43,373 nucleotides of DNA from Pseudomonadota bacterium (lineage in GTDB: Bacteria; Desulfobacterota; Desulfovibrionia; Desulfovibrionales; Desulfovibrionaceae). Below the pieces are notes generated by a model. It saw nothing but the letters and a program-made list of their open reading frames with translations, was not told where the DNA came from and ran no database searches. The translations under genes were made by a program, and so were the position numbers. Shown here piece after piece: positions 23,088 through 36,021 of this stretch (within the stretch, counting starts at the first letter, position 1; each line of letters opens with the position of its first letter). Location of the stretch: contig JAHIUD010000058.1 of assembly GCA_018817515.1 (NCBI GenBank), positions 1-43,373 on the forward strand. Direction: 5' to 3'.

Positions 23088-23453
23088 ATGAATAAAGATA
23101 CAAACCTGGATGCCTGCGAGAAGCAGTGCCTGCACACGGACCGCATCGAGCGGGTGCGTGGGGACATGCTTGCTGACAATGCGGCAGTGGGCCTGGCTGA
23201 GATCTTCGGCCTGCTGGGCGACCTGACGCGGGTGCGCATCCTGCATGCCCTGACCCTGGGCGAGCTGTGCGTGTGCGACATCTCCGCCGTGCTCGGCATG
23301 ACCTCTTCGGCGGTGTCGCATCAGTTGCGGCTGTTGCGCACGGCCAAGCTTGTCAGGGCCCGCAAGGAAGGCAAGAACGTCTTCTACACCCTGGATGACG
23401 AGCATGTGCGCCAGCTCTTTGCCCAGGGCCTGGAGCATGTGCTGGAGCGTTAA
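23088..23453 (+). CDS. ArsR/SmtB family metal-sensing repressor with two metal sites
   Basis: A 121-residue winged-helix repressor. The recognition helix region is LGMTSSAVSHQLRLLRTAKLV. Both metal sites known in this family appear complete. The alpha-3N thiolate site of CadC is represented by C10 and C14 (CEKQC) plus C61 and C63 (ELCVCD). The alpha-5 zinc site of SmtB is represented by D104, H106, H117 and E120, the same spacing and even the same numbers as SmtB. Metal binding should release it from DNA. The next gene is an SO_0444-type metal exporter, the expected target. The ATG at 23088 has only a weak ribosome site. Cd, Pb or Zn are the likely effectors. Confidence 0.9.
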   Translation: MNKDTNLDACEKQCLHTDRIERVRGDMLADNAAVGLAEIFGLLGDLTRVRILHALTLGELCVCDISAVLGMTSSAVSHQLRLLRTAKLVRARKEGKNVFYTLDDEHVRQLFAQGLEHVLER

Positions 23454-23473
23454 TTTTTTTGACCAAACAGATG

Positions 23474-23491
23474 AACAAGTGCGCAATTGTT
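23474..23491. promoter_or_regulatory. Second candidate metal-repressor operator before the exporter gene
   Basis: AACAAGTGCGCAATTGTT is an 18-bp inverted repeat with only one mismatched pair. It lies between the repressor stop and the exporter start (23515). It could be a second operator for the same repressor. Confidence 0.5.
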
Positions 23492-23514
23492 TGTGCGAAT
23501 AAAAAGGAAACCCC

Positions 23515-24633
23515 ATGGATGCTCTCCTGTTGCTCTTGACCGAAAGTTGGCACGTGTTCCGCCAGGCCGCGCCATTCCTGCTCTTCGGCTTTTTCGTGGC
23601 TGGCCTGCTCAAAGCTCTGGTTCCCGCCGATCTGCTGGTGCGGCATTTCGGGGGGCGGGGATTTCTCTCGGTGCTCAAGGGAGCGCTCTTGGGTGCGCCG
23701 CTGCCGCTGTGCTCCTGCGGTGTGCTGCCCGCCGCCATGGCCCTGCGGCGGCAGGGAGCAGGTGCCGGGGCCACCACGGCCTTCATGATCGCCACACCGG
23801 AGACGGGCGTGGACTCCATGGCCGTGACGTACGCCCTCATCGACCCGCTCATGACCGTGCTGCGGCCCTTGTCCGCGATTTTCACGGCCCTGGTGGCCGG
23901 GCTGTCGGCCAATCTTTTGCCGGAGCGTTATCTCCCCAGCGTTGAACCACAGCCAAAGGGCGAGGCCACTGGCTGCGTGACGGGTTGCTGCTCCGGCGGC
24001 TGTTCCGCATCCTCGTCAGGCAGCGCTGCTTCGAACCCTGCTGGCCAGGCAAGCCTTTCTGATCGTCTGCGCGAAGGCCTGGGCCACGCCTTTGGCGAGA
24101 TGCTGGCCGACGTCGGGGTCTGGCTGGTCCTCGGCGTGCTGGCGGCCGGGGCAATCTCGGCCTTTCTGCCGCCGACGCTGTTTGCTGATCTGCCGGGCGG
24201 CGAACTCACCTCCATGCTGGCCATGCTCGTCATCGGCCTGCCCATGTACGTCTGCGCGTCCAGCTCCACGCCCATCGCGGCCTCGCTGCTGCTCAAGGGC
24301 CTGTCGCCCGGCGCGGCGCTGGTGTTTCTGCTCACCGGCCCGGCCACCAACGTCACCACCCTCACGGTCATGGCCCGCACCTTTGGCGCGGGCCTCACCG
24401 GGATCTACGTGGCCTCCATCGTGGTCTGCTCACTTGTCTCCGGGTTCATGGCCAACCGCATCTACACGGCTCTGGGGTTCGACATCCATGCTGTGCTCGG
24501 CAGCGTGGCCGAGACTCTGCCCGCCTGGGTCGAGGTCGCCGCTTCGGTGCTGCTTGTGGTGCTGATCCTGCGCGCGCTGCTCGCCTCGCGCCACAGCCAC
24601 GAGGGCTGCGCCCATGGCGTGGCCGAGCACTAG
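23515..24633 (+). CDS. SO_0444-type Cu/Zn efflux permease (DUF318/ArsP-like)
   Basis: A 372-residue inner-membrane permease with two bundles of about four helices each. The conserved family blocks are GAPLPLCSCGVLPAAMALRRQGA in the first half (a CSCG motif in a membrane helix) and YVCASSSTPIAASLLLKGLSPGAALVFLLTGPATN in the second. A Cys-rich cytoplasmic loop, CVTGCCSGGC near residues 154-163, joins the halves. A His/Cys tail (SHEGCAHG) ends the protein. Relatives of Shewanella SO_0444 export copper and zinc. The gene directly follows the two-site metal sensor and has its own palindrome upstream, so it is probably induced by metals. The ATG at 23515 follows AAGGAAA (23504-23510). The amino acid GAPLPL/CSCG architecture also occurs in ArsP organoarsenical permeases, a possible alternative. 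Confidence 0.87.
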   Translation: MDALLLLLTESWHVFRQAAPFLLFGFFVAGLLKALVPADLLVRHFGGRGFLSVLKGALLGAPLPLCSCGVLPAAMALRRQGAGAGATTAFMIATPETGVDSMAVTYALIDPLMTVLRPLSAIFTALVAGLSANLLPERYLPSVEPQPKGEATGCVTGCCSGGCSASSSGSAASNPAGQASLSDRLREGLGHAFGEMLADVGVWLVLGVLAAGAISAFLPPTLFADLPGGELTSMLAMLVIGLPMYVCASSSTPIAASLLLKGLSPGAALVFLLTGPATNVTTLTVMARTFGAGLTGIYVASIVVCSLVSGFMANRIYTALGFDIHAVLGSVAETLPAWVEVAASVLLVVLILRALLASRHSHEGCAHGVAEH

Positions 24634-29764: not shown

Positions 29765-30052
29765 CTAGCCGTCGATGTAGTTAGAGATGAGCTTGACGAG
29801 CTTTTCGTACTGGTCCACGGGGTTGCCCTTGGTGCTGGCCTGCTCCTGGCAGCGCATGAGGTAGCGGCGCATGATCTGCTCCGTGGCGGAGCGCAGGGCC
29901 GCGCGCACCGCGCGCACCTGCACCAGGATGTCCTCGCACTCCTTGCCTTCCTCGATCATTCGCTGGATGCCGCGCACCTGACCTTCGATGCGCTTCATGC
30001 GCGCCGCGACATCCTTCTTGAGGGCTTCCTGATCCTTGATGACCTTGGCCAT
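29765..30052 (-). CDS. CsoR/FrmR family regulator of CstR type (probable persulfide sensor)
   Basis: A 95-residue all-helical DUF156 repressor. The family signature runs from MKRIEGQVRGIQRMIEEGKEC. Two cysteines, C39 and C68, are 29 residues apart, exactly as C36/C65 in copper-sensing CsoR and C31/C60 in persulfide-sensing CstR. The copper-binding histidine of CsoR falls at position 64, which here is tyrosine, so copper sensing is unlikely and the CstR pattern fits. CstR forms di- and trisulfide links between its cysteines when sulfane sulfur rises. The gene is the last of a minus-strand unit with a triple rhodanese and a thiosulfate/polysulfide-reductase-type enzyme, which fits this role. 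The ATG at 30052 follows AGGGAG; an upstream start at 30073 is less likely. Confidence 0.82.
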   Translation of the reverse strand: MAKVIKDQEALKKDVAARMKRIEGQVRGIQRMIEEGKECEDILVQVRAVRAALRSATEQIMRRYLMRCQEQASTKGNPVDQYEKLVKLISNYIDG

Positions 30053-30142: not shown

Positions 30143-30191
30143 CAGGGCCGGGGACGAACACTGGCGTGTCATTGGCTCGTCCCCGGCCCTG
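30143..30191 (-). promoter_or_regulatory. Strong intercistronic hairpin between the rhodanese and CstR-like genes
   Basis: A perfect 15-bp GC-rich stem (30143-30157 with 30177-30191) encloses a 19-base loop, 8 bases after the rhodanese stop. No T run follows on the minus strand. It may protect the upstream mRNA from decay or reduce expression of the regulator. Confidence 0.7.
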
Positions 30192-30199
30192 TGGCGGAC

Positions 30200-31303
30200 T
30201 TACTTCTTCTTGTTGTCGATGATCTCGCAGTTGCCGTCCTTGGTGCACTTGCTGGTGGCTTCCAGGTAGTACACGTCCTTGACGTCCTTACGCATTTCGC
30301 GGGTCATGTAGTAGGCCTCGCCGCTGCGCGCGCCGGTGGCGCAGACGAACACGACGGGCTTGTCGAACTTCATGCCCGGCAGCTTCTTCTCCAGCTCGTT
30401 GACGCTCATGTTCACCGCGCCCTTCATGTGCCCGGCGTTGTACTCGTCGGCGTCACGCACGTCGATGATCATGAGGCTCTCCGGCTTTTCGGCCAGGGTC
30501 TTCTTGAACTGCTCGGTGCTGATGGCGCCCTCGACGCCGCCGGTCTCGACCTTGAGACCGCCGCCGGAGGCGCCGAACATCTTGGTCCAGGCAGGCTCGC
30601 CGCCCTCGAAGAGCTTGACGTTGGTGTAGCCCAGGGCCATGGCCTTGGCCGCGCTCTTGTGGCTCAGGGGGCAGTCGTAGCCGCCGCAGAAGAACACCAG
30701 CTCAACGGCCTTGTCGGCGGGCAGCAGGCCGGTCTTCTTCTCAAAGGCGGAGTCGGGAATGCTGACGGCCGAGGGGATGCTGCCCTCCAGGAACTTCACC
30801 AGCGGGCGGGAGTCCACCAGCAGGAAGTTCTCGCCCTTGCTGATCTTCTCCTTGACCACTTCCACGGTGATGGCCGGGGCGTTGCCAGCCTTTACCCATT
30901 CCGGGTAGCCGCCGGGGAAGACCTTGACGTTCTTGTAGCCGAGCTTTTCGGCCTTCTTGGCGGAGGAGTGCGAGAGCTTGCACTCCGGGCCTTCGCAATA
31001 ATAGACCAGGGTGGTGTTCTTGTCCTTGGGCAGCAGGTCGAGATGCTTGTCGAACTCGCTGTCCGGGATGCTCGTGGCCGTGGGGATGTAGCCCTGCATG
31101 AACTTGCCCTTGTAGGGACGCGAGTCGATGAGCATGACGCCGGCCGGGTGCGGGACCTTCACCAGGGGCTTCACGTAGTCGATGCCGACGAGGTGCTTGT
31201 AGAACCAGTCGGGATTGGCGGCCTGGGCCTGCACCGTGAAGGCCAGGGCCAGCACTGCCGCCAGGAATACCTGGCCGATTCTGAACTTATGAATGTGACG
31301 CAT
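30200..31303 (-). CDS. Exported protein with three rhodanese domains
   Basis: A 367-residue protein with a Sec signal peptide (hydrophobic FLAAVLALAFTV, cut after AQA near residue 28) and three rhodanese (sulfurtransferase) domains. Domain 1 (about 33-145) has the loop CEGPECKLSH with C103. Domain 2 (about 147-245) has CGGYDCPLSH with C206. Domain 3 (about 258-360) has CATGARSG with C321. Each has the expected active-site cysteine, which would carry a persulfide. Domains 1 and 2 share a C-x4/5-C-x-L-S-H loop and look like an internal duplication. It probably shuttles sulfane sulfur in the periplasm to or from the PhsABC-like enzyme encoded upstream. The ATG at 31303 follows AGGAGT; longer starts lie upstream of that site and are rejected. 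Confidence 0.85.
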   Translation of the reverse strand: MRHIHKFRIGQVFLAAVLALAFTVQAQAANPDWFYKHLVGIDYVKPLVKVPHPAGVMLIDSRPYKGKFMQGYIPTATSIPDSEFDKHLDLLPKDKNTTLVYYCEGPECKLSHSSAKKAEKLGYKNVKVFPGGYPEWVKAGNAPAITVEVVKEKISKGENFLLVDSRPLVKFLEGSIPSAVSIPDSAFEKKTGLLPADKAVELVFFCGGYDCPLSHKSAAKAMALGYTNVKLFEGGEPAWTKMFGASGGGLKVETGGVEGAISTEQFKKTLAEKPESLMIIDVRDADEYNAGHMKGAVNMSVNELEKKLPGMKFDKPVVFVCATGARSGEAYYMTREMRKDVKDVYYLEATSKCTKDGNCEIIDNKKK

Positions 31304-31394: not shown

Positions 31395-32111
31395 CTAGGG
31401 TGCGCCGGGGTCGGCCTTGTCGCCCTCGCCCAGGCTCTCAACCCAGATGCCGTGGTGGTGGCGGGCGTAGTCCTCGGGCACCACGCCCGTGAACATGCTG
31501 CGGAAGCCGGGCTTCTCCTCGGGCGAGATGGCCGCCATGTAGATGTGGACCAGCAGCCCCGCGAAGACCAGGCCCACGGCCAGATAGTGCAGGGTCACGG
31601 CCCAGCCGACGAACACGGTGGCCGAGGCCGGAAGCATCTTGTCGGACAAGAGCAGCACCGCGCCGGTGAGCACGATGGCCGCGCCGCCCGCCACAGAGGC
31701 CTGGGCAAAGGCCTTCTGGCCCATGTTGTAGTAGCCTTGGGGCGGCAGCTCGCCGCCGATGCCCAACGTCATGCGGCCCATCTTGCGGATGAGCCAGAGG
31801 AAATCGCCGGGGCGGACGCTGAAGATCTCCTTCAGGAAGAACTTGGCGCCGCGGGCGTTCACCAGGACGTAGGCCAGGATGCCCAGCACCCAGAGCACGC
31901 CCGCCACCTCGTGGATGACGAGCAGCACGGCCCCGCCGGCGCTGCCGCCGCCAAAGAGGGCGCGCAGGGCGTCGGGGAACCACGCCCCCAGGGGGTTCAA
32001 GCGATCGTTCTTGATGAGCCCGAGCCCGGTGATGAGCAGCACGAGCCAGGAGGCCGCGTTGAACCAGTGGATGAGGATGTCGGAGGTATCGTGGCGCTTG
32101 AGGTTACGCAT
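31395..32111 (-). CDS. Cytochrome b subunit of the molybdoenzyme (PhsC/FdnI-like)
   Basis: A 238-residue membrane protein with four predicted helices. The histidines H15, H67, H175 and H189 are placed like the b-heme ligands of the formate dehydrogenase gamma (FdnI) and thiosulfate reductase PhsC family. The C-terminal MFTGVVPEDYARHHHG also matches that family. It would connect the periplasmic catalytic subunits to the quinone pool. This is not the NrfD/PsrC type of anchor. It overlaps the iron-sulfur gene by eight bases, and the ATG at 32111 follows AGGAGGAGGA, a strong ribosome site. Longer starts in another context are excluded by this site. Confidence 0.85.
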   Translation of the reverse strand: MRNLKRHDTSDILIHWFNAASWLVLLITGLGLIKNDRLNPLGAWFPDALRALFGGGSAGGAVLLVIHEVAGVLWVLGILAYVLVNARGAKFFLKEIFSVRPGDFLWLIRKMGRMTLGIGGELPPQGYYNMGQKAFAQASVAGGAAIVLTGAVLLLSDKMLPASATVFVGWAVTLHYLAVGLVFAGLLVHIYMAAISPEEKPGFRSMFTGVVPEDYARHHHGIWVESLGEGDKADPGAP

Positions 32112-32949
32112 GACCGTCCTCCTCCTTCTTCTCGGTATTTGGCTTGCTGTCTGTTTCGTGTGAATTGTCTGGCCCGCGTGAATTGTCTGGCCCGTGTGAA
32201 TTGTCTGGCCCGTGTGTTCCGGCTCCGGCAAAGAGCTGGCGGCCGAGCATGGCCAGCACGCCCAGGCCGGACAGACCCACCGCCAGCTTCACCGCCGGGG
32301 CCACAACCCCGGCCAGGAAGTCGAAGCTCGTCGGGTCCACCGGCTGCACGGTCCAGCCATCGGGCGCGGTGCTGGCGATGTAGTACATGTTGGGCTTGGT
32401 GTCCTTGTTCTTGGCCACCACGCGCACCACCTTGCCCTGGTTGGCCGCCAGCAGCTTCGCCGCCTCGCTGCTCGGATCGTTGATGTCGCCGAACACGCGG
32501 GCCTTGGTGGGGCAGGTGTCCACGCAGGCCGGGGCCAGCCCGGCGGCCCGGCGCTCCGGGCAGTAGTTGCACTTGTCGGCGATGCGCTTCACCGGATCGC
32601 GGAAGCGCGCGCCGTAGGGGCAGGCCTTGATGCAGTTGCCGCAGCCGATGCACAGCTTGGGGTCGATGACCACCGTGCCGTCAGCCGCGTTCTTGTAGGT
32701 TGCGCCGGTGGGGCAGGCCTGGATGCAGGTGGGCTCGTCGCAGTGCATGCACGCGCCGGGCTGGAAGTGCCCGTGGCCCAATTTCTTTGCCCCATCAAGG
32801 CCGTCCACGACAGGGGGCACGGCCTCCTTGATCCAGTTGCGCCAGACCCCGCGCGAGACGTTGTTGGCCTGCTTGCAGGACGCCATGCAGCCCTTGCAGT
32901 CGATGCACTTGGCCGAGTCGATGACCATTGCGAGCTTCTGGGTGCTCAT
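32104..32949 (-). CDS. Four-cluster ferredoxin subunit of the molybdoenzyme (PhsB/PsrB-like)
   Basis: A 281-residue electron-transfer subunit. The first 150 residues carry the cysteine pattern for four [4Fe-4S] clusters, starting C15IDC18KGC21MASC25 and continuing CMHCDEPTCIQACP, CIGCGNCIKACP and CNYC with CVDTCP. A single C-terminal hydrophobic helix (FLAGVVAPAVKLAVGLSG) is likely a membrane anchor. After it comes a tail of three tandem GPDNS(H/R) units followed by charged residues, which is unusual. There is no signal peptide, as expected for a subunit exported with a Tat-dependent partner. It overlaps the molybdoenzyme gene upstream as ATGA and the cytochrome b gene downstream by eight bases, so the three are translationally coupled. 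Confidence 0.92.
   Translation of the reverse strand: MSTQKLAMVIDSAKCIDCKGCMASCKQANNVSRGVWRNWIKEAVPPVVDGLDGAKKLGHGHFQPGACMHCDEPTCIQACPTGATYKNAADGTVVIDPKLCIGCGNCIKACPYGARFRDPVKRIADKCNYCPERRAAGLAPACVDTCPTKARVFGDINDPSSEAAKLLAANQGKVVRVVAKNKDTKPNMYYIASTAPDGWTVQPVDPTSFDFLAGVVAPAVKLAVGLSGLGVLAMLGRQLFAGAGTHGPDNSHGPDNSRGPDNSHETDSKPNTEKKEEDGHA
32157..32216 (-). repeat. Three 18-bp tandem repeats at the 3' end of the ferredoxin-subunit gene
   Basis: Units at 32157-32174, 32175-32192 and 32193-32210 differ at one position, with a partial fourth unit to 32216. On the coding strand they give a six-residue repeat GPDNS(H/R). Confidence 0.9.
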
Positions 32950-35153
32950 GCGGCCCCCTTCTTCTTCACGCTGAGGAAGGTTTCATGGATGGCCGAGTTG
33001 CCGCAGATGGAGTCGTAACGGGTCTCCATGAGTTCCACGATGCTCGCGCCAACTCCCTTGGTGTGCGACAAGCCGCCGGAGATGCTGCCGAAGCCGCTGA
33101 GCATGTACACGGTATCGCGGCGGATCTTCGGCGTCACCAGGGCCTTGAGCTCACCCTTGCCGACCGGGCTTTCCACCTGGACCACGTCGCCCTGCTTGAC
33201 GCCAAGCTCCTTGGCCGCCTCGTCGTTCAGCCAGAGCATGTTCTCCGGCTCAAACTCGGACAGGAGCGCATTGTTGGTGCTGCTGGCCTGGGTGATGCAG
33301 GCGCTGCGGCCCACCACGAGGCGGAACTTGCGGGCCGTGTCCGGTGAGGGCTTGGGGGGCGTGTACACCGGCAGCGGGTCCAGGCCCATCTCCGCGTAGC
33401 GCGAGCAGAACAGCTCGATCTTCTGGCTCGGGGTTTTGAAGGCCGCGCCGTCCGTGCCGCCCAGGGGCGGGTTGGGCGGGTAGAACACGCCATCGCGCTT
33501 GATGATTTCCGCTGCCTCGGGGAAGGCGGCCAGCTGCTTTAAGCGGTAGCTCTCGATGTCGAAGTCGAAGAACTCGCCCAGGCCGAGCTTGCCCGCCAGG
33601 ATCTTCAGGATGTCGAACACCGGCCGGCTCTGGTAGAGGGGGGGGATAACCGCGTCGCGCCAGACCAGGCACGCGCCCTCGGCCCCGGACTGGAGCGCCT
33701 GCACCGGGTCCGTGCGCTCCATGGCGCTGGGCGCGGGCAGCACCAGGTCGGCCATCCAGGCCGTGTCGCTCATGGTGATGTCCACCACGATCATGAAGTC
33801 CAGCTTGTCGATCATCTCGCGGGTCTTCGCGCGTTCGGGCGCGGTGGCCATGGGGTTGGTCTTGTACACGAACCAGCCCTTGATGGGGTAGGGCGCGCCC
33901 TTGATGACAGCCTCGCGGGTGAGCACAAAGGAGCCTTCCTCGTCAAACAGCAGCGGCACGCTCTTGGCGTCCACGCGGCCGGGCGGGTTGTCGTCGTACC
34001 AGGGCGGCTCGCCCGGGACCTTCTTCAGCCCCGCTGGCCGCGCCGGAACCAGGCCGCCGGGGCGGTCGTAGTTGCCGAGCAGCGCGTTGACGATGGCGAA
34101 GCTGCGGCGGATCTGGGTGGAGTTCTCGTAGTCCGAGGTGCGGCGACCAGGGTAGACCATGGAGGACGGGGCCGCTGCGGCCAGGTCGCGGGCCATGCGC
34201 CGGATGTCCGCCGCCGGGATGCCGGTCTCCTTTTCGGCCCACTCCGGGGTCATGTCCGCCACGTGGTCGGCCAGCTTGTCCAGGCCGCTGGTGCGCTCGG
34301 CCATGTACTTGGCGTCGTAGAGCTTCTCGGTGATGATGACATTCGCCAGGGCCAGCATGAAGGCCATGTCCGTGCCGGGGCGGATGGGATGCCATTCCGA
34401 GGCCAGGGCCGCGCTCTTGGTGTAGCGCGGGTCCAGCACCACGACCTTGGCGCCTTCCTTCATGATGGAGATGAGGTCCATGCTGTCGGGCGTGACCAGG
34501 GCCTCCAAACGGTTGGCACCGGCCAGGATGACGTACTTGGAGTTCTTGACGTCCGGCAGGGGCACGTCGCCGAAGGTGTCCAGGAAGGCGCGGTTGCCGG
34601 AGAGCAGGCACAGGGACTCGTGGCTGGTGACGTTGAAGGAGCCGAAGGCCTCGGCAAAGCGGTTGACGAAGCCGCTTTGCATGTCCGCCCCGGCGCTGAA
34701 GAGCATGCCACATCTGGTGTACTTCTCGCCGATGTCCTTCATCTTCGTGGCGGCGAGCTCCAGGGCTTCGTCCCAGGAGATGGCCTTCCACTTGCCTTCG
34801 CCGCGCGCGCCCACGCGCAGGAGGGGCGTCTTCAGGCGGTCCGGGTCGTAGACCTGGGCTACGCCCGCGTTGCCCCGCGCGCAGAGCATCCCGCGCGACT
34901 TGGTGAACTTGGGGTTGGGGTCAAGCTTGGTGATGACGCCGCGCTCCACCCGGGCGATGAGCCCGCAACGGTTGAAGCACATGTCGCACACGCTGTACTT
35001 CGACTCCCACTTGGGCGCCTGGACGGCTGGCGCGGCCTTGGCCTCGGGCGCCGTGGCCGCCGTGACGGCCGTGGCCGCCACCGCAGTGGCAGCGGTCCCC
35101 GCCAGGCGCAGGAAGTCGCGCCGGGAAATCTGTCTGGTGCTGTTGTCGTTCAT
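32946..35153 (-). CDS. Periplasmic molybdopterin oxidoreductase, thiosulfate/polysulfide reductase type (PhsA/PsrA-like)
   Basis: A 735-residue catalytic subunit of the DMSO-reductase family. It has a twin-arginine signal SRRDFL (10-15) with an Ala-rich hydrophobic stretch, cut near residue 40. The [4Fe-4S] site is C56, C59, C63 and C91. The block SHESLCLLSGNRAF places a cysteine (C182) where PsrA/PhsA have their molybdenum ligand. The enzyme would reduce thiosulfate, polysulfide or tetrathionate, or run in the oxidative direction; sequence alone does not decide. The exported triple rhodanese and CstR-like regulator of the same operon point to sulfane sulfur. Formate dehydrogenase is unlikely because the usual selenocysteine or cysteine context and its active-site arginine-histidine block are not seen. 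It overlaps the next gene as ATGA. Confidence 0.85.
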   Translation of the reverse strand: MNDNSTRQISRRDFLRLAGTAATAVAATAVTAATAPEAKAAPAVQAPKWESKYSVCDMCFNRCGLIARVERGVITKLDPNPKFTKSRGMLCARGNAGVAQVYDPDRLKTPLLRVGARGEGKWKAISWDEALELAATKMKDIGEKYTRCGMLFSAGADMQSGFVNRFAEAFGSFNVTSHESLCLLSGNRAFLDTFGDVPLPDVKNSKYVILAGANRLEALVTPDSMDLISIMKEGAKVVVLDPRYTKSAALASEWHPIRPGTDMAFMLALANVIITEKLYDAKYMAERTSGLDKLADHVADMTPEWAEKETGIPAADIRRMARDLAAAAPSSMVYPGRRTSDYENSTQIRRSFAIVNALLGNYDRPGGLVPARPAGLKKVPGEPPWYDDNPPGRVDAKSVPLLFDEEGSFVLTREAVIKGAPYPIKGWFVYKTNPMATAPERAKTREMIDKLDFMIVVDITMSDTAWMADLVLPAPSAMERTDPVQALQSGAEGACLVWRDAVIPPLYQSRPVFDILKILAGKLGLGEFFDFDIESYRLKQLAAFPEAAEIIKRDGVFYPPNPPLGGTDGAAFKTPSQKIELFCSRYAEMGLDPLPVYTPPKPSPDTARKFRLVVGRSACITQASSTNNALLSEFEPENMLWLNDEAAKELGVKQGDVVQVESPVGKGELKALVTPKIRRDTVYMLSGFGSISGGLSHTKGVGASIVELMETRYDSICGNSAIHETFLSVKKKGAA

Positions 35154-35228: not shown

Positions 35229-35546
35229 CTAGTTGCACTTGGCCGGAGAAGGGGAGTCCTTGGCGTAGTCGTGCAGGTAGGAGTAGATGTCGCCACGGTC
35301 GGCATCGGACACTCCCTTCCAGTCCTTGGCGCACTTGATGCCTTCCCACTTGGCGAAGGTCTTCTTCCAGTCGGCCTGGGTCTTGGAGTTGGGCGAAAGG
35401 TCGGAGGCGGTGGCGCCGTGACAGGTGCGGCACTTCTGGCGGTACAGGAACTTGCCCTTGCGGGCGTTGCCTTCGGCGAAAGCCAGGCTGGCGACGGCCA
35501 GAGCCAGGACCAGGGCGGCGATGATGCCAATGCTGCTGCGCTTCAT
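35229..35546 (-). CDS. Small exported monoheme cytochrome c
   Basis: A 105-residue protein with a signal peptide (cut after AFA near residue 24) and one heme motif CRTCH at 39-43. The mature chain contains no methionine, so the usual Met axial ligand is missing; H92 (YLHDYAK) is the only other histidine I see after the motif. Two extra cysteines, C72 and C104, might form a disulfide or react with sulfur species. It is the first gene of the sulfur operon, so it probably carries electrons to or from the PhsABC-like enzyme or the rhodanese protein. The ATG at 35546 follows AAGGAGA; the longer open frame upstream crosses the operon promoter and is rejected. Confidence 0.85.
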   Translation of the reverse strand: MKRSSIGIIAALVLALAVASLAFAEGNARKGKFLYRQKCRTCHGATASDLSPNSKTQADWKKTFAKWEGIKCAKDWKGVSDADRGDIYSYLHDYAKDSPSPAKCN

Positions 35547-36021
35547 GGGACTCTCCTTGGTTTTGCGTTCCGGTCTTCGTGGCGGCCCGAATGGCTTCCA
35601 CGTTTGTTGATGATCATATGGCTCATAGATACCCATACGGGGTACCAGTGTCAAGGGGGTTGGGGACAAATTTGAACATAATATTTTCATGCTTAAGTTT
35701 TACATAACCATATTGAAAATTAAGATGTTTTAATTGGCAGCCTGGCAGCTTGGCCTTGGGGCGAGAAAATTAATCGTTCTGCCGACACGCCGGTTGCGAG
35801 TATTGTCTTCAGCGCAAGGGTAAGGACCTGCCGTAAACCCGTTAGCACACAATTCGTATTCTTGTACAAGATTCTTCTGCCAGTTCCTGCGCATAGCCGA
35901 GCACGGTTTGCGTATGCGCCCCGGTTAACCTTGGGGCAGGGAGCCCTTTTCAAGTTGCGGCTTTTCCGCTAGTTCAGTGGGGCGTCAAGGGATATCGAAC
36001 TGCGCCGGGAGGGCTTGAGAC
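35547..36021. other. 475-base gap between the sulfur operon and argH
   Basis: The left part holds the promoter and inverted repeat of the sulfur operon. The middle (about 35660-35740) is AT-rich compared with the rest of the window. The right part holds a small hairpin (GCCCC at 35918-35922 with GGGGC at 35933-35937) before argH. I see no believable gene. Confidence 0.6.
35626..35654 (-). promoter_or_regulatory. Sigma-70 promoter of the sulfur operon with embedded operator candidate
   Basis: On the minus strand a consensus TTGACA (plus 35654-35649) is followed after 17 bases by TATCTA (plus 35631-35626), about 80 bases before the cytochrome c start. The spacer contains an inverted repeat TACCC-N5-GGGTA (35630-35644) that also overlaps the -10 element. 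Repeats with C-runs and G-runs flanked by TA are typical of CsoR/CstR-class operators, as I recall them. Confidence 0.65.

Follow-up and report, generated by a model that had tools for sequence, protein, structure and literature searches.

The window, the whole stretch of 43,373 nucleotides analysed here, carries on its minus strand a cytochrome c-Phs-rhodanese gene set, followed by the gene of a CsoR-family regulator (Table 1). The first gene of the set encodes a monohaem cytochrome c and was absent from the first-pass annotation. The remaining order given there is borne out, with PhsABC-like genes and a rhodanese of three PF00581 stretches with a signal-peptide-like start, all on the minus strand. 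Among 27 models compared with the molybdoenzyme, the PhsA model NF012032 is the best with 533.8 bits, below its equivalog cut-off of 694. The best solved relative is 2vpw (E 5e-122), and the alignment places a Cys within an 'SLC' stretch, which we take to be the Mo ligand. By these matches the predicted enzyme is Phs/Psr-like, short of the PhsA equivalog level. The combination of cytochrome c, PhsABC-like molybdoenzyme and exported triple rhodanese, together with the palindrome described below, recurs in 11 genera of the family, as counted by genus labels. Elsewhere in the window, at 23088–24633 (+), an ArsR-type regulator gene is followed by a gene for an SO_0444 family Cu/Zn efflux transporter (401 bits, cut-off 300).

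Table 1. Features of the regulator locus and of the gene set next to it, in window coordinates
Feature	Position	Strand	Remarks
csoR-family regulator	29765–30052	-	95 aa counted from ATG; PF02583 87.5 bits (gathering cut-off 22.8); C39/Y64/C68 by alignment (C-Y-C, CstR-like)
Strong GC hairpin, terminator- or attenuator-like	30143–30191	-	after rhodanese stop; 15-nt perfect arms 30143–30157 / 30177–30191; no T-run
Triple rhodanese, signal-peptide-like start	30200–31303	-	367 aa; three PF00581 stretches
Cytochrome b561-type membrane anchor (PhsC-like)	31395–32111	-	238 aa; PF01292
Fe-S subunit (PhsB-like)	32104–32949	-	281 aa; 4Fe-4S dicluster families; ferredoxin-type
PhsA/PsrA-like molybdoenzyme, RR-type signal	32946–35153	-	735 aa; best NCBIfam model PhsA
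Monohaem cytochrome c	35229–35546	-	105 aa; PF13442 (matched on longer ORF)
Promoter-like TTGACA-17-TATCTA	35626–35654	-	sequence reading; spacer = predicted operator
Predicted operator TACCCCGTATGGGTA	35630–35644		palindrome TACCC-N5-GGGTA; conserved in promoters of relatives

The PF02583 match places the regulator in the CsoR/RcnR family. It has the two cysteines 29 residues apart and the tyrosine in place of the CsoR histidine that had been read from it before; in family alignments C39, Y64 and C68 line up with the Cys, His and Cys ligands of CsoR, in that order. The protein is therefore typed C-Y-C, and the ligand set of copper CsoR is absent from it. Since Tyr64 stands in for the His ligand, metal sensing is unlikely. 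The P-type ATPase motif DKTGT[LIV]T does not occur in the whole 43-kb window. The source genome (3.61 Mb, 114 contigs) harbors two PF02583 genes, the window copy and one at C85:40317, both C-Y-C. It is 95% complete, so a further CsoR gene could be missing from it.

The promoter-like stretch before the cytochrome c gene reads TTGACACTGGTACCCCGTATGGGTATCTA, from 35654 down to 35626, and 83 bases separate the palindrome from the cytochrome c start codon (35546). TACCC-N5-GGGTA is presumably a CsoR-family type of box. The predicted operator sits where a CsoR/CstR repressor would bind, and a protein bound at it should exclude RNA polymerase. What is new here is this reading of the palindrome as the filling of the spacer of a TTGACA-17-TAT promoter before the cytochrome c-Phs-rhodanese genes. 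Its conservation supports the earlier proposal that the regulator controls a PhsABC-like and rhodanese output.

All 49 promoters read contain the box with at most one mismatch, and 43 have it exact. The first sample comprised 34 loci with both PhsA and cytochrome c matches, each read over a 300-nt stretch whose end lies 100 nt ahead of the haem motif. In this sample 30 boxes are exact, and all 34 are within one mismatch. Mononucleotide shuffles of the same stretches (34 x 200) gave no exact box in 6800 and 0.69% with at most one mismatch, and 1832 other 300-nt pieces of the same loci held 5 exact boxes and 22 within one mismatch. Fifteen more promoters added 13 exact boxes and 2 with one mismatch; the shuffle controls refer to the 34-locus sample. 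In 28 of the 34 loci the chosen site has TTGACA in front of it, 17 nt from a TAT-type -10. At L047, L049 and L307 the site was picked outside a TTGACA context, and each of these genomes also has a TTGACA site with one mismatch.

Position of the motif, not its frequency, is the evidence, because on its own the motif is no more frequent in the source genome than chance predicts: TACCC-N4-GGGGTA with one mismatch shows no excess there over the reversed control (11+13 vs 14+16). When TTGACN5TACCCN5GGGTA was searched in 297 genomes, the source genome gave one exact match, which is the window site, and one match with a mismatch. The stricter palindrome TACCCCC-N4-GGGGGTA has no match in the window at up to three mismatches, and a general promoter scan of the window did not list the operon promoter. 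The extended form ATACCC-N5-GGGTAT is no marker by itself, since it is present in 94 of the 297 genomes, some without this clade's regulator, and absent from the source genome. Other genera have the same box next to genes for a C-H-C CsoR and a P-type ATPase (L290, L291), so the predicted operator does not reveal the ligand. In a same-genus genome that is 87% complete, an identical promoter and palindrome precede cytochrome c and PhsA genes (L279, G250:C135), and PF02583 finds no match. Because this contig stops within the gene set, the regulator may be missing from the assembly.

PF02583 matches number 127, in 122 of the 297 genomes of the order. Residue classes were assigned by alignment to 124 of them, all but a second G193 fragment and the weak, partial matches in G206 and G295: 66 are C-Y-C (63 genomes), 55 are C-H-C, and C-A-C, C-R-F and C-S-C occur once each. 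A triple-rhodanese match of at least 336 bits is found in 52 genomes, and the regulator is C-Y-C in 47 of these and C-A-C in 1. The remaining four are without this clade's regulator. G233 and G260 have only a C-H-C protein, and their contigs are too short for promoter reading. G013 and G023 have no PF02583 gene; in the stretch covered they have no PhsA match, and the sole cytochrome match is boxless (4 mismatches, L325). A C-Y-C regulator occurs with no triple-rhodanese match of 336 bits or more in 16 genomes. Such genome counts across the order are not independent, because the genomes are related. Triple-rhodanese matches in other families of the order run through an in-frame TGA (G022, G032, G046, G001, G017, G050, G063, G069, G037), as would be expected of selenocysteine rhodanese-type proteins.

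Gene neighborhoods differ between the two main classes. The P-type ATPase motif is nearby at 47 of 55 C-H-C loci vs 2 of 66 C-Y-C loci, in scans covering 3–16 kb per locus and 43 kb for the window; several of the eight C-H-C loci without the motif lie on short contigs. Differences in the second shell were also observed. At X-1, 48 of 50 C-Y-C proteins of the order have Glu, whereas 72 of 80 C-H-C proteins from outside it have Tyr. Z+16 is Lys in 43 of the same 50 and Glu in 74 of the same 80. The X-1 and Z+16 residues play a role in copper allostery. The C-H-C proteins inside the order differ from the outside ones too, mostly with Pro at X-1. The far C-Y-C group of 11 in this comparison includes two members of the order, L130 and L131, and nine from outside it. 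Three relatives have C-S-C (L329, G293), C-A-C (L103, G149) and C-R-F (L081, G121) in place of C-Y-C, showing that the tyrosine is replaceable and that one protein is without the second cysteine.

Trees of 85 rows and of 52 rows were built. The C-Y-C proteins of the order group in a single clade (99/91; masking of the key residue gives 96/94), and the C-N-C proteins form a separate one (100/96; 100/98 masked). The two clades join with 94/96, in a grouping that also takes in 6 of 8 distant C-Y-C rows, and with 93/64 when the key residue is masked. This adjacency to the CstR clade is suggestive only, because the program cautions that columns are few and branches long. The order clade of 30 rows comprises 28 C-Y-C proteins, one C-A-C and one C-R-F. 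Both cysteines are kept in 29 of the 30, more than chance would be expected to give. Tree placement had been proposed as a check on the regulator: it falls outside the FrmR/RcnR and C-H-C groups and nearest to the CstR clade, within the suggestive support just given. Residues, neighbors and tree together support the view that it is neither a copper CsoR nor an FrmR/RcnR protein.

The first-pass annotation had also taken the tyrosine as the CstR residue pattern, which is not supported. Bacillota CstR-like paralogues have Asn at the CsoR His position in 7 of 7 cases, as has PDB 7mq1, which is presumably a CstR although its record name says csoR. Judged by the sampled CstR-like proteins and 7mq1, Tyr is not the CstR pattern. 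Rhodanese-type ORFs are in view at 6 of the 7 Bacillota C-N-C loci (by eye, 3-kb loci). C-Y-C was also considered as a mark of sulfur sensors everywhere and rejected: nine distant C-Y-C loci have mostly housekeeping genes as neighbors (by eye), and the tree places 2 of 8 distant C-Y-C rows among the C-H-C ones.

The regulator had been called the last gene of the operon. Its position after the rhodanese gene stands, but simple operon membership is doubtful. A gap of 147 nt separates the two genes and holds the hairpin, a 91-nt piece of which folds with -47.9 kcal/mol (z -6.2). A GC hairpin of differing sequence follows the rhodanese stop in 6 of 6 same-genus operons folded. In 28 of 49 C-Y-C/C-A-C loci, a chaperone-like gene lies on the strand opposite csoR (chaperone query, E below 1e-4), directly upstream of csoR in the loci with printed coordinates. 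Two of the three chaperone queries pass the cut-off of PF02613, and the third reaches 13.2 of 22.2 bits; this chaperone family was not found in the source genome by profile search. Boxes with one mismatch precede csoR in L033, L037 and L041 (operon-linked) and in L035 and L052 (lone), and one with two mismatches in L036. Because of the hairpin after the rhodanese stop, the boxes upstream of relatives' csoR and the opposite-strand chaperone-like genes, we read csoR as probably its own transcription unit, not simply the last operon gene.

The lone paralogue L052 of the source genome may share or lead the repressor task. It is possible, though doubtful, that L052 is the working repressor of the operon and that the window copy, itself little expressed, is a duplicate that has diverged or is decaying. 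L052 pairs with the operon-linked csoR of G005 (99/84), and the window copy sits on a longer branch (0.30 vs 0.05–0.12). Upstream of L052 there is a near-operator; upstream of the window csoR there is none (4 mismatches). The rhodanese-csoR gap, 147 nt in the window, is 294–337 nt in five same-genus relatives. However, the window copy is intact and keeps all the invariant columns of a 12-row clade alignment, and both copies could act together. Having L052 as the repressor alters the acting copy, not the mechanism.

As a whole explanation we favor, with moderate confidence, a C-Y-C CsoR-family repressor that holds the cytochrome c-phsABC-rhodanese genes off until sulfane sulfur raises persulfide. 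CsoR-family proteins are tetramers. The cytosolic repressor, of the C-Y-C branch near CstR, would in its reduced form bind TACCC-N5-GGGTA between the -35 and -10 boxes, either as the window copy or as its close paralogue elsewhere in the source genome, and would thereby block the cytochrome c-phsABC-triple rhodanese genes; both steps are suggested by the conserved placement of the box. Polysulfide, S0 or sulfane sulfur derived from thiosulfate would raise cytosolic persulfide. C39 of one protomer and C68 of its neighbor would then be persulfidated or joined through sulfur, and the modified repressor would release the DNA so that the enzyme is made, by analogy with CstR, YrkD and ScCsoR. The enzyme would reduce sulfane sulfur in the periplasm, and the rhodanese would handle sulfane sulfur. 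Such a sensor would report the substrate, zero-valent sulfur, and not sulfide. A sulfate reducer always makes sulfide. With sulfide always present, a sensor of sulfane sulfur rather than of sulfide would be a neat solution. Sulfane-sulfur sensing is likely. What the sequences themselves show is the family, the key residues, the gene order, the conserved palindrome in the promoter and the contrast to the C-H-C loci; DNA binding, repression, the persulfide signal, sulfane-sulfur induction, the substrate of the enzyme and the identity of the acting copy are inferred. Several observations weigh against this explanation: the box also adjoins metal ATPase genes, its half-sites are spaced otherwise than in ScCsoR, CstR-type proteins have Asn where this one has Tyr, the two clades join without firm support, some genomes have the rhodanese or the regulator alone, ScCsoR is persulfidated at Cys37 with no bridge, and YrkD does not answer thiosulfate.

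The same repressor and operator could serve a different signal. Oxygen or other oxidants would form a C39-C68' disulfide, and the genes would answer oxidative stress or sulfite; we consider this unlikely. Conservation of both cysteines suits thiol oxidation also. In the passages available, the S. aureus CstR is likewise cross-linked C31-C60' by an HNO donor (PMC5480029), and disulfide-linked TTHA1953 binds DNA less well, with NaHS having no visible effect (PMC10318464). The target genes, however, reduce and transfer sulfur, and a few relatives have the box in front of rhodanese genes and of genes of the octaheme tetrathionate reductase type. No oxygen-defence gene was seen among the Pfam and NCBIfam profile matches of the window operon.

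Less probable still, and surprising to us, would be a repressor that responds to a metal (Cu, Ni, Zn) or to formaldehyde in the manner of CsoR, InrS, RcnR or FrmR, with the sulfur genes adjacent by accident. The fold family is the same, and the only NCBIfam matches of the regulator are RicR, FrmR and RcnR, but they are all far below cut-off (65.9 of 175, 40.6 of 133 and 39.8 of 138 bits, respectively). The box is used beside metal ATPase genes elsewhere, and the window has the Cu/Zn efflux gene, accompanied by an ArsR gene of its own, at a distance of about 5 kb. Against a metal or formaldehyde ligand stand the lack of His at the ligand position, the differing second-shell residues, the rarity of the P-type ATPase motif at C-Y-C loci, the tree position outside the FrmR/RcnR and C-H-C groups, and the placing of the conserved predicted operator on sulfur genes.

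Further boxes were seen in other genomes, which were selected because a site was found. In G251 a box with TTGAC upstream precedes an octaheme tetrathionate reductase family gene (L280:1531-3273 (-), 591.8 bits, cut-off 375), and another precedes csoR itself. In G147 a box, again with TTGAC upstream, precedes a 134-aa ORF (L276:3645-4049 (+)) with a partial match to the same family (52.1 bits, below cut-off). In G076 the box stands before a rhodanese-YgaP-like gene. Seven genomes of genus g7 (L272, L273, L274, L275, L285, L286, L287) have a perfect or near-perfect ATACCC-N5-GGGTAT near 3.1–3.4 kb, between the genes of citrate synthase and of a Tat-type Fe-S protein. The best HMM for the L272 Fe-S protein is HmcB (127.6 of 420 bits); the other six were assigned by resemblance. 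This site is a possible second target of the C-Y-C regulator. An octaheme gene (637.5 bits) is also found at L048, where G143 has a lone csoR. A lone same-genus csoR is adjoined by an FmdE-zinc finger-MoCF (molybdopterin-binding) fusion (L034:8553-10238 (+)), as are, by resemblance, those of L038, L040 and L042; other lone same-genus csoR genes neighbor an ORF of no named family and a Usp gene.

The CsoR family is known mostly for metal and sulfur stress defence, and to our knowledge the choice of sulfate reducers to respire thiosulfate or polysulfide is poorly understood. We hold it about evenly balanced that a distinct C-Y-C branch of this family in Desulfovibrionaceae senses zero-valent sulfur and turns on anaerobic sulfur respiration instead of detoxification, with the palindrome as promoter spacer. 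Its targets would be a Phs/Psr-type enzyme, joined in some species by Hmc/DsrO-like proteins and by those of the octaheme tetrathionate reductase type.

The notion of a fingerprint has been put forward (PMC5016687), and several members of the CsoR family have been studied, the CstR of E. faecalis among them (PMC9405070). Copper CsoR and the C-H-C proteins of the order belong to the same family as the window regulator and share the same kind of palindrome. They differ in the His ligand, in second-shell residues and in the P-type ATPase motif near most of their loci. The window protein resembles the CstR of S. aureus, with C31/C60 (PMC5480029), and YrkD of Bacillus licheniformis, which is CstR-like and, in the passages available, answers S0 and polysulfide, not NaHS or thiosulfate (PMC9918477). 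The likeness covers the spacing of 29 residues between two cysteines, targets among sulfur genes, with rhodanese-type proteins included, and the nearest clade in the trees. In contrast, CstR and YrkD have Asn where the window protein has Tyr, they serve sulfide oxidation and detoxification instead of a respiratory Phs/Psr-like molybdoenzyme, and the window protein stands in its own Desulfovibrionaceae clade.

A sulfane-sulfur sensor has also been reported in Streptomyces coelicolor: ScCsoR (SCO0620) depends on Cys37 and Cys66 and recognizes ATACC-n6-GGTAT; as far as the available passages state, only Cys37 is persulfidated, with no bridge (PMC7533328). It shares with the window regulator the spacing of 29 residues, the half-sites ATACC/GGTAT and control of a rhodanese. 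The center between half-sites is 6 nt in its operator whereas it is 7 nt in the window palindrome, and its targets include a persulfide dioxygenase and a sulfite transporter. On the enzyme side, the PhsA of another Desulfovibrionaceae member, Oceanidesulfovibrio marinus CS1, produced H2S from thiosulfate in E. coli and was up-regulated with thiosulfate (PMC10989961); the passages available name no regulator for it. In the open-licence literature, as far as its passages were available, no report of a CsoR/CstR regulator paired with a phs operon was found. TTHA1953 of Thermus thermophilus, which controls Sox (PMC10318464), is also a cysteine-based CsoR-family regulator of sulfur energy metabolism. 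Its operator is TACNNTACNNNNGTANNGTA, it serves oxidation instead of reduction, and its targets are non-adjacent. If the proposed mechanism is true, the CsoR family becomes a switch of energy metabolism, for which TTHA1953 with Sox is a precedent on the oxidative side.
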